A stretch of 36,243 nucleotides of DNA, taken from the NCBI GenBank assembly GCA_947478925.1, contig CANJXY010000016.1:1-36243 (forward strand). Reading direction: 5' to 3'. Origin of the DNA: Hyphomonadaceae bacterium. Lineage in GTDB: Bacteria > Pseudomonadota > Alphaproteobacteria > Caulobacterales > Hyphomonadaceae. A program made the translations under genes and the position numbers. The notes below the pieces were generated by a model. The model saw only the letters and a program-made list of their open reading frames with translations, was not told the origin of the DNA and did not search any database. Shown here in pieces: positions 1,038 through 13,027 of the stretch; the first letter of the stretch is position 1, and every line of letters begins with the position of its first letter.

Positions 1038-2084
1038 CTATTTCGCCAGCGTCGTGACGCAGCCCGCGATGGAGCGGTTCTTGTCGCCGTTGAGGCGGAG
1101 GCCGTAGCGGGCGAGGCAGAAAGCGTGCTCGTAGCGGGTGGCTGTGGCGGAGACGCAGCCGAACATTTCGATCTGCGCCGCTTCAAGGCAGCTGAGCGTG
1201 GTTGGATCTTTCATCGTTGCAGTCACCTGCTCGGCGTTCGACTTGTCAGCGTCGATCGTGTGCATGGCAGCCAGTGTCATCATGCGATTGGCGGTGCCCT
1301 TGAGGTTGGGATCAACCTCAAGCGTGGTCGGCGCGACGGAGACCGGGGAGACGGACGAGAAGGCTTTGCCCGGTGCGCTGACGGCGATGACCGAAACCTT
1401 GTCCCAGAGCGAATTGGCGGCATCCGGCGAGGTGGCGACGGAGGCCAGCATCGCGTTGAGGTCGGGACCGGAGAAGAGCTTCTGCACCGCCTCAGTCACC
1501 GGCTTGTTGGCTTTGGCTGCGACGCGGAGCGAACCGAGCGCAGTTTCGTTTTCCTTGGCGTTCAGGCGCTTCTTGGCCCAGCCGAAGTTCTGCATCGTGT
1601 AGGATTGCTCTTTCACGAAGGCGCCGGCGCTGGAGATGCGGCTCTTGTCGCGCGAGGTTGCGGCGAGAACAGTCTGCAGCGCGTCCTTGCCGCCGCCAAG
1701 GCTGCCTGCATAGCCGAGGTCGCGCTCGAGGCCGAGCATCAGGCGCTCGCGGCCGTAGTAATTGTCGATGTCGCGCACGCCCTTCACGAACTCCGGGTTC
1801 TGGGCGGCGAGGATTGCCGAGTAGGAGAGCCAGGACGAGGACAGCTGGTCCACGTTCGGAGCAGCGAAGGTTTCCAGCGCGTTGTCGACTTCAGCGGCGT
1901 TGCTGAGCTCGTTAACCATGATGTTCGAGACCTGCCCCTGATAGTCGGCATAGGCAGCAGCCGCTTTTGGCAGGATGCGTGCAGGAGCGGCCGGAGCCGC
2001 TGCGTCGGGTGCCTGGGACATGGCGACGGGAGTCCCCAACGCAAGGACTAGGGCGACAGCGTAGAACTTGGTGCGGTTACGCAA
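1038..2084 (-). CDS. Exported protein of unknown function
   Basis: The product is 348 residues with an N-terminal signal peptide (basic MRNRTK, hydrophobic FYAVALVLALGTPVA, likely signal peptidase I cleavage near residue 23-25), then an Ala/Pro-rich segment and a mostly helical body. Four cysteines are confined to the last 60 residues, which suggests disulfides in the periplasm. The start is TTG at 2084, supported by GGAGG six bases upstream. I do not recognise the family and see no catalytic motif. A strong terminator follows the gene, and it diverges from the histidine kinase gene across about 170 bp. Role unknown. Confidence 0.8.
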   Translation of the reverse strand: MRNRTKFYAVALVLALGTPVAMSQAPDAAAPAAPARILPKAAAAYADYQGQVSNIMVNELSNAAEVDNALETFAAPNVDQLSSSWLSYSAILAAQNPEFVKGVRDIDNYYGRERLMLGLERDLGYAGSLGGGKDALQTVLAATSRDKSRISSAGAFVKEQSYTMQNFGWAKKRLNAKENETALGSLRVAAKANKPVTEAVQKLFSGPDLNAMLASVATSPDAANSLWDKVSVIAVSAPGKAFSSVSPVSVAPTTLEVDPNLKGTANRMMTLAAMHTIDADKSNAEQVTATMKDPTTLSCLEAAQIEMFGCVSATATRYEHAFCLARYGLRLNGDKNRSIAGCVTTLAK

Positions 2085-2244: not shown

Positions 2245-2260
2245 AGTGTCAAATGACACT
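2245..2260 (+). promoter_or_regulatory. Inverted repeat over the kinase start codon
   Basis: AGTGTC-AAAT-GACACT is a perfect 6-bp inverted repeat with a 4-base loop. The ATG at 2253 sits in the loop and stem, and the GGGGAG Shine-Dalgarno overlaps the left arm. In mRNA it could form a small hairpin masking the start. In DNA it could be an operator half-site pair. It is short enough to be chance. Confidence 0.3.
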
Positions 2261-3563
2261 TCCCAAGGCTTTGTGGCTTGGACTTTCTGCAGTTGCCGCG
2301 TTCTGGGCCTTTGCTCTGGGCGTGCCAATATGGCTCAGCTCGATGACGTTTGCCTGTTCCATCGCGCCTCCGCTCGTTGGCACATTCATGCGCGGATCGA
2401 CGTCGGCAGCCCAGGCGGTCGAAGTTGAATCGGCTCTCTGGATTGCATTTGCGACGGCCGGCGCGGCGAGCACCGGCGGAGCGACTTCGATTATCGTGAT
2501 CTTCGGCGTCGCGATCGCGGTTGCTTGGATGTCCGGCCGCGCGCGCCTGACCATCGAGATTGCTGGATTTGCACTTGGCGGCGTGCTGATCGCGCTGATT
2601 GCAGGATCGAATGGCGGGTGGATCCTTCGCCCCGACGCGACTATTCTGTCGACCGCGTATGGCCTGAGCGGTCTTGCAATGATCGCTGTGCTGGCTGGAA
2701 CTGCGGTGATGCAGGCGCCGGTCATTGCGCGGCAGAAATCTTCGACGTCAACTGACCGCGCCAAAGAAGCGGAAGCACGGCTGAGGCAGCTCGAGATCGA
2801 CCTGCGGAAAGCAGCGGCTGCGGCGGACGATGCGAAAGCGAAAGCCAATGAAGCGCGCACGCAGCTCGAAGCGCGCACGACATTCTTTGCGCAGACGAGC
2901 CATGAGCTGCGCACGCCGCTGAATGCTATCGTTGGGTTTGCAGAAATGATGCGCGGCGGAATATTCGGTCCGCTATCGGAACGCTATCAGGAATATGCAG
3001 AGCTTATTCATGAAGGCGGGAGAAATCTCACGCTTATTGTTGATGACGTGCTGGATCTCGCGCGGCTGGAAGCGGGCAAGTATGACATCTATGCGGAACC
3101 GGTGAGCCTGACCGATCTTGCGGACGAAGCTGTTCATTTCATGGGCGATGAGGCGGCGCGGAAGTCGATCAAGCTGAGTCGTGTGAGTCAGGACGACGCC
3201 GAAGCGTTCGCCGACTCGAAGGCCGTGCGGCAGATCGCCCTCAACCTGATATCGAATGCGCTGAAATTCACGCCCGCAGGGGGGGCTGTCGATGTCATTG
3301 CGGAAGAAGTTCCTGGCGGGTCGATGCTGATCGTTTCTGATTCAGGCGTAGGGATCAGTCCCGAGGAGCTCCTGAAACTGTCGCGCGCGTTCGAGCAGGG
3401 CGAGGCCGGAAAGAAGCAGAAAGGCGCTGGACTGGGACTTTCGGTAGTGCGGGCGTTCGCGGAACTTCATGGCGGACGGCTCGACATCCAGAGCCGCGAA
3501 GGGGGTGGTTCGCGGATCGGCGTCTTCTTCCCCGCAGAGGCGAGCAACCCAGCGCCGGGCTAG
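2253..3563 (+). CDS. Membrane-bound sensor histidine kinase
   Basis: The product is a 436-residue kinase. Residues 1-155 hold about five or six hydrophobic helices with almost no periplasmic loop, so it probably senses within the membrane. Residues 165-210 form a charged, Ala/Glu/Arg-rich coiled coil. The HisKA domain has the phospho-acceptor His217 in SHELRTPLNAIVGFAEMM. The ATPase domain shows NLISN (331-335), DSGVG (363-367) and GAGLGL (391-396). All key residues are present, so it should be active. No receiver domain is fused and no response regulator gene is nearby, so it is an orphan. The H-box resembles alphaproteobacterial PleC/DivJ-type kinases. The TIR gene follows 134 bp downstream on the same strand and may be co-transcribed. 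Confidence 0.92.
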   Translation: MTLPKALWLGLSAVAAFWAFALGVPIWLSSMTFACSIAPPLVGTFMRGSTSAAQAVEVESALWIAFATAGAASTGGATSIIVIFGVAIAVAWMSGRARLTIEIAGFALGGVLIALIAGSNGGWILRPDATILSTAYGLSGLAMIAVLAGTAVMQAPVIARQKSSTSTDRAKEAEARLRQLEIDLRKAAAAADDAKAKANEARTQLEARTTFFAQTSHELRTPLNAIVGFAEMMRGGIFGPLSERYQEYAELIHEGGRNLTLIVDDVLDLARLEAGKYDIYAEPVSLTDLADEAVHFMGDEAARKSIKLSRVSQDDAEAFADSKAVRQIALNLISNALKFTPAGGAVDVIAEEVPGGSMLIVSDSGVGISPEELLKLSRAFEQGEAGKKQKGAGLGLSVVRAFAELHGGRLDIQSREGGGSRIGVFFPAEASNPAPG

Positions 3564-3697: not shown

Positions 3698-6151
3698 ATG
3701 ACGGATGTTTACGTGGCGTACGCTCGCGAAGACCGCGACCGCCTGCGCTTGATAACTGAAATGCTCAGATTTGAGGGCTGGGACCTCTGGATGGATCCGT
3801 TTGATCTGTCCGATGAGCCATCGCCTGTGGCGGAGCTGAAGCTGGCTTCCGCCCGAGTGATTCTCGCGTTTTGGTCCGATCGTTCGCGGACGTCGGAGGT
3901 TGTCCGGTCAGAAGCCGCGACCGGGCTCTACAAGAACAAGTTGATGCAGTTGCGGATCGATAGTGGCGCGCCGCCGCGTCCGTTCGACCAGGTCGAGTCG
4001 CTGGACTTCGCGCACTGGCGCGGGGATATCGACGATCCGATCTGGCGCCGGCTGATCGCGGGGCTGAAGCATCATGCGGGCGAACCTGCCGGAACACGCG
4101 TCTTGCCGAACACGACTCGCAATGTGATGGCGCCGCCGCTGTCCATGCCGTCCATGCAGCCGCCCTCCCAGACGCAGCCGCGTCAGAACATGGAGCCCCC
4201 GCCGTCGCGACCACAGCAGGTCTACCCGCCGCCGCAACCGGTGTTCCAGGCCGCGCCGCCGGCCGCACCCGTTTATCAGATGCCGCCCGTGCCGCCGCCG
4301 GTCTATCAGATGCCGCAGCAGCCTCCGGCGTATCAAGCGCTACCGCAACAGCCGCAATATCAACCGCAGCCGCCTGCGCCGCCGCCGACGTATCAGATGG
4401 CTGCGCAGCCGATTCAGCGGGCGCCGGCATACGATGTGCCACCTGTCCCACTGCCCCTCCCGCCGCTGGTCCCGCCGCAGGAGCCGCCATGGCGCCGGTC
4501 TGGTGGCGCGGCCGAGTTTGCGGAGGCCCGGAGCGGGTCGGGCAGGTCGGGCGGCGCGATCGGCTATACCGAGACGAAGCGCGGCGGAACGGCGTGGGGC
4601 CCTCTTGCGGCAGCCGCGATCCTGATCGTGTCGGGCGTCGGCCTGTGGTTCGGCGATCCGTTCGGCTGGCGCACAAGCGCGGGGCCAGCTGAATCCGAGC
4701 CGATCGCAATGGCGGCGCGCACGGTGAGCGATGCGCCTGTCGCCAATGGCGAACCGGTGACGACCGTGTTCGAGGATTCCGAAGAGTCGAACTCCAACTG
4801 GACGCGCGTGAACCGCAAGAGCCCGGATGCCTTGCGCGACTATGTGACGGAGTATCCGCGCGCAAGCACGGCGGAAACGGCGCGTTCGCTGTTACGCGTG
4901 ATGGATGCGCAGGCGTGGGTGACGGCAGTGACGGCCGACAACGACGCTGCGTATCAGGCCTACCTCAAACGTTTCCCCGCCGATGGCGTGATGCCGGGCG
5001 CGATGGCGGTCTCTGCGCGCGACAGGCTTGCCTCGCTCGGCAATGAGCGGCGGCAGGCGATCGAGGAAATCCAGCGCGGGCTCACTGCGCTCGATCTTTA
5101 TGGCGGACCGGTCGATGGCAAAGGAGGCGGCACCACGGCGCAGGCCGTGACCAAGTTCGCGAGCGCAAATCGTCGCTCGGCGCCGTCGCTGTTAACGTCA
5201 TCCCCGCGCGAGCTGCGCATGTTCGCGGAAGCCGTACGACGGGCGGGATCGCGTGAGATTGCGAGTGTGGAAGTTGCGGCGGCCAGCGAAGCCGATCTGC
5301 TGCGCGTGGCCCAAGCGCAGGCAAAGGCGAAAGCCGCAAGCCTCGCGGTCGCGACAGTTCCGGCAGGTAACGCGGACTCCCTCGCTATGACCCAGCAGCA
5401 GCGCATCGCAGAAGTGCAGGCGTGGAATGCGGCCGAACAGGCGGGCACGCCCGCTGCGTTCCAGGCTTATCTGGCGGCCTGGCCGAGCGGCCCGAACGTG
5501 GCGGCGGCACGAGCCGCGATCGCCAAGCCGCCAAGGGCCGCGCCCTATAGTCTCGATCTGCTCTCCGCCGATGTGCGGACCGTAGTGGACGCGGCGCGCA
5601 GGGCGCAGGCGATAGCCAACCAGAAAGCAGCGGCCGCGCGGCAGGCTGCAGCGGCGGCCGATGCGCTGACCAATGCGGGCTCGATCACCGGGGCCAACGG
5701 CGACCGCTATGTCGCGCAGATCGCCAATGGCGCGCCGAACGGCGTAGGGTTGCGGGTTCGCGGTGCCGGTGCAAATTCGGGCGACCGCTATCGCGGCGAG
5801 TTGCGCAACGGGCAGAGCGTGGGCGTTGGTGTCTACGAATTCTCTGACAATCCGGGCAATGCCGGGTCACGGGCGCAGCGCTATGAGGGCGAACACTCAG
5901 GCGATGCGGCGAGCGGCTATGGTGTCTTTTACTGGCGCAGCGGCGATAGCCTCGCGGGCAGTGGCGCAGGCGGCGGCGGACAGGCGCGCGGCGTGCTGAG
6001 CTATGACAACGGGCAACGCTATGAAGGCGACATGATCAATGGCCAGCGCGATGGCGTAGGTGTTTTCTGGGCGAGCGACGGAAGTGTCATGCAGGCGGGC
6101 CGCTGGGCGAAAGATGCGATGGCCGAGCCGATGAAAGCGCCTGCCCCATAG
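3698..6151 (+). CDS. TIR - transmembrane - peptidoglycan-binding-like - MORN protein
   Basis: The product is 817 residues in modular order. A TIR domain (about 1-125) starts MTDVYVAYAREDRDRL. A Pro/Gln linker (about 135-265) contains repeated PVYQMP-type units. One membrane helix (about 299-318) follows. Then come Trp repeats (W368, W407), a peptidoglycan-binding-1-like stretch (about 455-490, IQRGLTALDLYGGPVDG then a Thr-Ala-Gln-Ala helix), a third Trp repeat (W576), an Ala-rich helix and three or four MORN units (about 665-805, e.g. GQRYEGDMINGQRDGVGVF). The inferred topology puts TIR inside and the rest in the periplasm. TIR domains either bind partners or cleave NAD+. The usual catalytic Glu position looks shifted (P43/E46), so activity is uncertain. 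GGAGGGG precedes the ATG. Confidence 0.85.
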   Translation: MTDVYVAYAREDRDRLRLITEMLRFEGWDLWMDPFDLSDEPSPVAELKLASARVILAFWSDRSRTSEVVRSEAATGLYKNKLMQLRIDSGAPPRPFDQVESLDFAHWRGDIDDPIWRRLIAGLKHHAGEPAGTRVLPNTTRNVMAPPLSMPSMQPPSQTQPRQNMEPPPSRPQQVYPPPQPVFQAAPPAAPVYQMPPVPPPVYQMPQQPPAYQALPQQPQYQPQPPAPPPTYQMAAQPIQRAPAYDVPPVPLPLPPLVPPQEPPWRRSGGAAEFAEARSGSGRSGGAIGYTETKRGGTAWGPLAAAAILIVSGVGLWFGDPFGWRTSAGPAESEPIAMAARTVSDAPVANGEPVTTVFEDSEESNSNWTRVNRKSPDALRDYVTEYPRASTAETARSLLRVMDAQAWVTAVTADNDAAYQAYLKRFPADGVMPGAMAVSARDRLASLGNERRQAIEEIQRGLTALDLYGGPVDGKGGGTTAQAVTKFASANRRSAPSLLTSSPRELRMFAEAVRRAGSREIASVEVAAASEADLLRVAQAQAKAKAASLAVATVPAGNADSLAMTQQQRIAEVQAWNAAEQAGTPAAFQAYLAAWPSGPNVAAARAAIAKPPRAAPYSLDLLSADVRTVVDAARRAQAIANQKAAAARQAAAAADALTNAGSITGANGDRYVAQIANGAPNGVGLRVRGAGANSGDRYRGELRNGQSVGVGVYEFSDNPGNAGSRAQRYEGEHSGDAASGYGVFYWRSGDSLAGSGAGGGGQARGVLSYDNGQRYEGDMINGQRDGVGVFWASDGSVMQAGRWAKDAMAEPMKAPAP

Positions 6152-6244: not shown

Positions 6245-6433
6245 ATGGCCGAGCAGGCCAGATCCCTCAAGGTGTTCGTCTCGTATTCGCGAGCGGACGA
6301 GGGCTTGGCGGACCAGCTGATTCTGGCGTTGGAGGACAAGGGATTCAATCCCATCCTCGACCGCCGCGACATCAGCGGCGAAGCCCTAATTGCTGAGCGG
6401 CAGGCTGAGCAGCGGGTTTCCGTTGGGGCCTGA
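6245..6433 (+). pseudogene. Truncated TIR-domain gene
   Basis: The first 46 residues are a clear TIR start: LKVFVSYSRADEGLADQLI, a helix ending LEDKGFNPIL, then DRRDISG, the usual end of the first half of a TIR domain. After about 6380 the similarity stops and the frame reads 16 unrelated codons to a TGA. At that point the sequence becomes the 3' end of the convergent gene at 6386-7432. The second half of the TIR domain and any effector domain are missing, so this is almost certainly a deletion or rearrangement remnant rather than a small functional protein. It is a different TIR subtype from the gene just upstream, so it is not a simple partial duplication of it. Confidence 0.75.
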
Positions 6434-12613: not shown

Positions 12614-12694
12614 GCTTGCCCAACATGTTAACGCGGTTCTTCCAAAAATCGTGCAAAGCGGGCGCCAGCCGGCGGATTTGTGGTAAATGGCCTG

Positions 12695-13027
12695 ATGGCT
12701 CGCGAGATTCCTGCCCACCTCTGGGTTTCGGCCCTGTTGCGCCGCGCCTCCCTCGCGGGCGCGTTCGCAACGATTGTCCATCGCGGGGACGAGGAACGGG
12801 GCGATGTCCTGGTGAAGGTCACGCGGGCACGGGGCGAGGCGCGGCTCTATGCCCCCGCGTTCAACCCGGAAGGGCCGACCGAGTTCGAGCGGTTGGCGGC
12901 GGAAGACGAACCTGGGGCCGACGCGCTGATCGCCAAGCGGCTAAAGAGCGATCGCGACCTCTGGGTCGTGGAGATCGAGGACCGCGACGGGCGGCACTTT
13001 CTGACGGAGAAGGTGCGCAAGCCTTAG
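12695..13027 (+). CDS. DUF1491 family protein
   Basis: This is a 110-residue soluble protein of the alphaproteobacterial DUF1491 family, function unknown. The family start is obvious (IPAHLWVSALLRRASLAGAF), followed by a beta-rich core with DVLVKVTRARGEARLYAPAF and the C-terminal signature DRDLWVVEIEDRDGRHFLTE. The ATG at 12695 fits the family start better than the in-frame GTG at 12680. It converges with the lipoprotein gene at 13034, leaving only 6 bp between the two stop codons. Confidence 0.9.
   Translation: MAREIPAHLWVSALLRRASLAGAFATIVHRGDEERGDVLVKVTRARGEARLYAPAFNPEGPTEFERLAAEDEPGADALIAKRLKSDRDLWVVEIEDRDGRHFLTEKVRKP

Follow-up and report, generated by a model that had tools for sequence, protein, structure and literature searches.

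The stretch of DNA analysed here (the window, 36,243 nucleotides) carries a single open reading frame at 3698..6151 on the forward strand that encodes a protein of 817 residues. From the N-terminus, the product consists of a TIR domain, a linker, a membrane helix, a Trp repeat, a PG_binding_1-like stretch, a second Trp repeat, a coil and MORN repeats. An earlier note on this DNA had listed these modules in this order in one chain (TIR, linker, helix, Trp repeats, peptidoglycan-binding-like part, MORN), and Pfam and hydropathy bore it out.

The TIR domain (residues 1-128; 3698..4081, +) was identified by Pfam, alignment and a structure model. TIR_2 (PF13676) matched residues 4-115 with E = 3.2e-9 and 37.8 bits, above the cut-off of 28. 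A Pro/Gln-rich linker of variable length follows (4082..4585, +). The long linker of the earlier note is real in the window protein but is not conserved, being nearly missing in nine of the 13 other unbroken kinase-linked orthologues; those nine are 633-733 residues long. A single membrane helix is predicted from hydropathy at residues 301-319 (4598..4654, +), and just after it lies a D-P-F-x-W motif common to most orthologues. Two Trp-anchored repeats, defined by our own pattern, occupy residues 407-440 (4916..5017, +) and 576-609 (5423..5524, +), with the PG_binding_1-like stretch between them (residues 452-487; 5051..5158, +). An Ala/Arg-rich segment, presumed helical (residues 615-655; 5540..5662, +), also occurs in relatives whose N-termini differ. 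The MORN repeats span residues 694-805 (5777..6112, +); Pfam placed MORN (PF02493) in three stretches with E = 2.3e-9 and 37 bits against a cut-off of 22.5, and this part of the protein matched a PDB MORN1 chain at E = 5.3e-10. Across the protein family (n = 15, window protein included), TIR_2 and MORN were each found in 15/15 members at E <= 0.1. NCBIfam matched only HxsA, an identity that was rejected because the score of 17.3 bits fell short of the 121.65 required.

The kinase locus and its conservation

Directly upstream of the TIR gene lies a gene for a multi-pass histidine kinase with a DivJ-like core (HisKA, HATPase_c; 2253..3563, +). Divergent from the kinase gene is a gene for a secreted-type protein (1038..2084, -) whose N-terminus holds a hydrophobic, signal-like segment and which has four conserved cysteines. 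The kinase matched DivJ (NF050805) in its kinase core only, at 221.4 bits, and ranked second among the genome's 33 matches; with an equivalog cut-off of 1000 bits, its identification as DivJ itself was rejected. The four cysteines of the secreted protein, near its C-terminus, were kept in 16/16 aligned sequences. No Pfam family passed its cut-off for this protein, and a PDB search returned nothing under E 0.23. The neighbours that Pfam could name were the histidine kinase, an FMN oxidoreductase and a YdjM protein, the others having no family over cut-off; a DUF1491 gene lies at 12680-13027 in the window. An ORF of 62 residues at 6245-6433 (+), whose start matches TIR_2 positions 1-41, is a remnant of a second TIR gene. 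Scans found no promoter (0.9 expected) and four terminators (3.2 expected). GANTC occurs once, at 2236, and not in the 134-bp gap between the kinase and TIR genes.

Seventeen loci were compared, namely the window and L039-L054. In 16 of them the TIR gene directly follows the kinase gene, which is divergent from the secreted gene; in the remaining one, L054, the gene is sited elsewhere and encodes a sister protein that lacks the PG stretch. One of the 16 kinase-linked loci, L049, stops at a contig edge inside the TIR gene. In L048 (8224-11095, -; genome G023) the orthologue runs out of frame before MORN, which is encoded in a different frame. The kinase and the TIR protein may be functionally linked; a gap of 134 bp between their genes does not establish a shared transcript.

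The secreted protein was found in 101 of the 105 genomes of the taxonomic family, and the C-terminal part of the TIR protein in 18, of which 14 belong to its own genus. Thirty of the regions compared carry the secreted gene, and in 29 it is divergent from a membrane kinase; the remaining one stops at a contig edge. The secreted protein is an unnamed core partner of this kinase. A further comparison covered 14 regions, from 13 genomes, in which the secreted gene occurs without a TIR gene. In 13 of these the kinase adjoined it (L085 is cut off by the end of its contig), and in 13/13 a homologue of DUF1491 started at most 5.5 kb from the kinase start. Since the kinase and secreted genes are paired elsewhere without it, the TIR gene is an addition to an older pair.

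Within the genus, 14 of 15 genomes carry an orthologue, as do two further genera; the one genome of the genus that lacks it is 73% complete. Amino-acid and silent change were compared in five pairs. Their ratio was 0.045-0.31 in the TIR domain and 0.09-0.37 over the full-length protein, against 0.09-0.18 in the kinase and 0.096-0.38 in the secreted protein; these values are rough, since several of the silent distances approach or exceed 1. In four of the pairs the ratio of the TIR protein exceeded that of the kinase. The TIR gene is under purifying selection.

Bacterial TIR domains are known above all as immune effectors, and the earlier note had proposed that the protein could report cell-wall damage or phage entry to the cytoplasm. 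As an abortive-infection receptor, it would respond to wall damage or injection by clustering of its TIR domains, NAD+ would drop and the cell would die. TIR NADases do serve phage defence (SpbK and Thoeris, in the accessible part of the source), and Zorya defence depends on peptidoglycan binding (accessible part of PMC11890865); other TIR genes are present in the genome, and a gene for a TIR-helix-WD40 protein comes next in L045. Nevertheless, the same core locus was seen in 16/16 kinase-linked loci and 14/15 genomes of the genus, and the gene is under purifying selection. Viral contigs gave 21 pattern matches, none of which was confirmed as a relative, and one of 72,556 plasmid records matched, in the TIR part only, with no full-length relative. 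PADLOC 2.0.0, run on four proteins at E <= 0.01, had no match for the TIR protein and two of its neighbours, while the kinase weakly matched PDC-M43B at its ATPase part (20.3 bits). This picture of selection and mobility is unexpected for a mobile defence gene and compatible with a fixed one. These results, together with the stable kinase neighbour, leave a report of phage entry unsupported, and an anti-phage receptor appears distinctly unlikely. The stable site beside a core sensor kinase makes a built-in envelope signalling protein likelier than a mobile phage-defence gene.

Membrane topology and the C-terminal modules

Only one clear hydrophobic segment was detected, at residues 301-319, with a mean hydropathy of 1.78 against 1.01 for the next best window. 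Across the kinase-linked clade the helix has a modest mean hydropathy of 1.46-2.42. Charges were compared over 20 residues on each side of the helix in 16 proteins, comprising the 15-member alignment and L081. In 15 of the 16, Lys/Arg residues were more numerous before the helix than after it (for example, five against two in L044), and in L054 the numbers were equal. Net charge was higher before the helix in 13/16; L051 had equal values, and L050 and L054 showed the opposite bias. Cys after the helix was found in none of the 16. Given this excess of Lys/Arg next to TIR, the simplest topology has TIR inside and the PG and MORN parts outside, in agreement with the arrangement first supposed, and hydropathy and charge did not place all modules on one side. 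The protein thus probably spans the inner membrane once, with TIR in the cytoplasm and the PG-like and MORN parts in the periplasm, as judged from hydropathy and charge.

The PG_binding_1 (PF01471) match at residues 452-487 turned out to be borderline in the window protein, with E = 1.4e-4 and 22.4 bits against a curated Pfam cut-off of 23, and consistent in the family, where 14/15 members matched at E <= 0.1 (best E 2.7e-7). When 11 members were scored singly, the window protein as a whole and the ten others by their repeat/PG part only, five passed the cut-off (5/10 of the others) and six, including the window protein, fell below it. The structure model of the Trp-repeat/PG region had a pLDDT of 47, and the best PDB profile match was a spore cortex-lytic enzyme at E = 0.16. 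Since this model failed, the PG fold is assigned on a sequence basis only. The stretch is present in the 14 kinase-linked loci other than L048 and L049.

Two sister proteins, in L054 and L081, are sited away from the kinase locus; they have the BB-loop Gly and Trp repeats, and Pfam found no PG_binding_1 match in them. They may reflect the state that preceded the move of the TIR gene to the kinase locus.

A search with the C-terminal profile matched at least 26 of 398 genomes in the order, ten of them outside the family, and a class-wide search matched at least 25 of 385; in both, up to three candidates per genome were scored, so that absence is soft. Outside the own genome, the 27 matches listed class-wide all begin at model position 309 or later, in the coil or MORN part. 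Thirteen regions (L121-L133) were inspected, 12 from the ten extra-family genomes and L133 from the own genus, with Pfam scans of ten of the 13 proteins. All share the coil+MORN C-terminal module, and none of the ten scanned proteins matched PG_binding_1 at E <= 0.01. TIR and MORN occur without a membrane segment in L125, L127, L132 and L133 (in L132 with MORN under cut-off), and with one in L121 and L126. A caspase and MORN stand behind an N-terminal hydrophobic segment in L128 and L130, the latter with MORN at 22.4 bits against the cut-off of 22.5. Multi-pass N-termini precede MORN in L129 and, by sequence, in L131, and a membrane segment precedes it in L122 and, by sequence, in L123 and L124. 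Within a single order, the module stands behind N-termini of the TIR, caspase, multi-pass and single-helix types, and at least four of the proteins lack a membrane helix. As TIR and caspase proteins both carry it, coil+MORN is a module common to both, and it probably sits on either side of the membrane.

These relatives bear on the reading of TIR plus MORN as a trans-envelope design. The helix is present in the window protein, but the combination is not in itself trans-envelope because relatives without a membrane segment exist. It is conceivable, though very unlikely, that the window protein is of this soluble type, its hydrophobic segment merely acting as an anchor or its C-terminal half lying in the cytoplasm, with no signalling across the envelope. 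The four TIR, coil and MORN proteins without a membrane segment and the modest helix hydropathy would fit such an arrangement. The Lys/Arg bias, the lack of Cys after the helix and the PG_binding_1-like stretch argue against it, as do the N-terminal hydrophobic segments before MORN in L122, L128 and L130.

The TIR domain and its active site

The TIR domain was modelled from a two-row alignment with a pLDDT of 76.5, and the structure prediction proposed in the earlier note gave a TIR-type fold. In the alignment, residue E72 falls on the Glu of the SARM1 C helix, and by motif it matches E208 of AbTir. The catalytic Glu of SARM1 is E642; PDB entry 7cm7 is titled E642A. This position is Glu in 16/16 rows of the family alignment. 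It is also Glu in 28/28 TIRs compared, which comprise 14 of the clade, seven sister or order-level TIR-MORN proteins and seven other TIRs of the own genome.

The surroundings of this Glu differ between the clade and the other TIRs. The Trp position of the WxxxE motif, four residues before the Glu, is W or F in 0/14 of the clade, whereas it is W in eight and F in six of the 14 others. The BB-loop Gly, six residues past the Asp position of strand B, is present in 3/14 of the clade (L044, L045 and L046) as opposed to 13/14 of the others, and by alignment the BB loop of the clade is one residue shorter. This loop is the most variable region of the clade, with an entropy of 1.83 against 1.17 overall (1.51 against 1.39 in the other 14 TIRs). 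Residues 73-88, just past E72, have an entropy of 0.69, compared with 1.33 in the other TIRs, and the first strand one of 0.63.

Mutation of R151, D167 or E208 is reported to inhibit the NADase activity of AbTir (accessible part of PMC11374754). AbTir positions were placed here by alignment, and the two in the C helix by motif. R151 corresponds to R17 (R in 13/16 rows) and D167 to D33 (D in 12/16 rows). S140 is changed to A7, with Ser in only 6/16 rows, and W204 is changed to V68. In the same part of PMC11374754, formation of the cyclic AbTir product requires W204, and NADase activity of TcpC is unaffected by W240A, a mutation of the matching Trp. With W204 tied to the cyclic product and the TcpC Trp dispensable, NADase activity with a linear product and no activity are both possible. 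Because the surroundings of the active site are unlike those of other TIRs, NAD cleavage cannot be assumed. The TIR of this clade may be inactive, given that the WxxxE Trp is absent, the BB-loop Gly mostly gone and S140 replaced by Ala here.

A TIR of this kind might be a non-enzymatic assembly domain, and the protein a scaffold tethered to the wall, bringing the cell's other TIR proteins, or the kinase, together at one place on the envelope. The altered features of the clade would suit this role, namely the shorter and most variable BB loop, the loss of its Gly in most members and of the WxxxE Trp in 14/14, and the highly conserved residues 73-88, as expected for a contact surface. The genome (3.9 Mb) also holds 14 TIR_2 matches, the window gene and the remnant included. 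Nevertheless, E72 in 16/16 rows and the largely kept R17 and D33 would be unexpected if catalysis had been lost, and TcpC W240A keeps NADase activity (PMC11374754, accessible part). A pure scaffold is a doubtful, if credible, possibility.

A proposed role in envelope signalling, and related systems

The explanation we tentatively prefer, at somewhat less than an even chance, is that of a lineage-specific, wall-tethered, single-pass TIR protein of envelope signalling that forms one module with the DivJ-like kinase and the secreted protein. In this module, to which TIR would have been added in one lineage, the C-terminal half would be periplasmic and its PG_binding_1-like stretch would touch the cell wall, with the MORN repeats as a putative platform for binding or clustering. 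A change in the state of the wall or envelope may then alter the clustering of the cytoplasmic TIR domains, which would either cleave NAD+ or recruit partners through TIR-TIR contacts. If NAD+ is cleaved, linear ADP-ribose is perhaps the product, since the clade has lost the WxxxE Trp that goes with a cyclic product in AbTir. The role would be in envelope-linked growth or cell-cycle control, or in stress-triggered arrest, and not in mobile phage defence.

Should the topology and the coupling be right, a TIR effector would have been recruited into ordinary envelope signalling. TIR stands in a core envelope-kinase locus in 14/15 genomes of the genus with its catalytic Glu kept and the usual partners of this residue changed, and the clade allows a concrete test of the need for the WxxxE Trp and the BB loop. 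A bolder and rather unlikely version sees a Toll-like-receptor counterpart in reverse, in which a wall-sensing single-pass receptor feeds a core histidine kinase of cell-cycle type through a cytoplasmic TIR with an altered site, the TIR-MORN gene having joined the old pair and its TIR having been reshaped afterwards.

No paper with TIR, a membrane helix, peptidoglycan binding and MORN in one chain was found in literature that covered preprints and subscription papers thinly, nor one combining TIR domain, MORN, peptidoglycan-binding and bacteria; the word 'MORN' does not occur in the accessible parts of PMC7159879 and PMC7075850. The earlier statement that no system with this module order is described thus held within this coverage, and a characterised homologue with another role was looked for and not found.

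Among known proteins, the bacterial TIR NADases AbTir, PdTIR and BtTir and the animal SARM1 are alike in TIR fold and catalytic Glu, and AbTir also in the R151 and D167 positions kept in the window protein. The window clade differs from them in lacking the WxxxE Trp and, in 11/14, the BB-loop Gly, and the window protein in its fusion to a membrane helix and to wall-binding-like and MORN parts. With respect to Thoeris, no ThsA-type partner is seen beside the TIR gene among the Pfam-named neighbours, and the ThsB_TIR profile matched 3/15 family members with a best E of 0.027.

Zorya (ZorA/ZorB) would be nearest by working principle, having inner-membrane proteins with a periplasmic peptidoglycan-binding part and action in the cytoplasm, and its defence needs peptidoglycan binding by ZorB (accessible part of PMC11890865). 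Its peptidoglycan part is Pal-like, whereas that of the window protein is PG_binding_1-like, and the Zorya models in PADLOC had no match to the TIR protein or three neighbours. Toll-like receptors are likewise single-pass, with a cytoplasmic TIR and a sensing part outside (accessible part of PMC7075850). Their order is the reverse of that in the window protein, where TIR is N-terminal, the outside parts are unrelated, and there is no evidence that the two designs have a common descent.

The window protein belongs among TIR proteins with added sensor parts, a known kind. In its own genome, an N-terminal TIR followed by one helix and then another domain is a recurring plan, seen in the TIR-helix-FGE-sulfatase proteins of L002 and L005. 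These differ in their C-terminal domain and have the WxxxE motif. The same N-terminal arrangement, again with a different C-terminal domain, is found in L045, where the gene next to the TIR-MORN gene encodes an unbroken TIR-membrane helix-WD40 protein.
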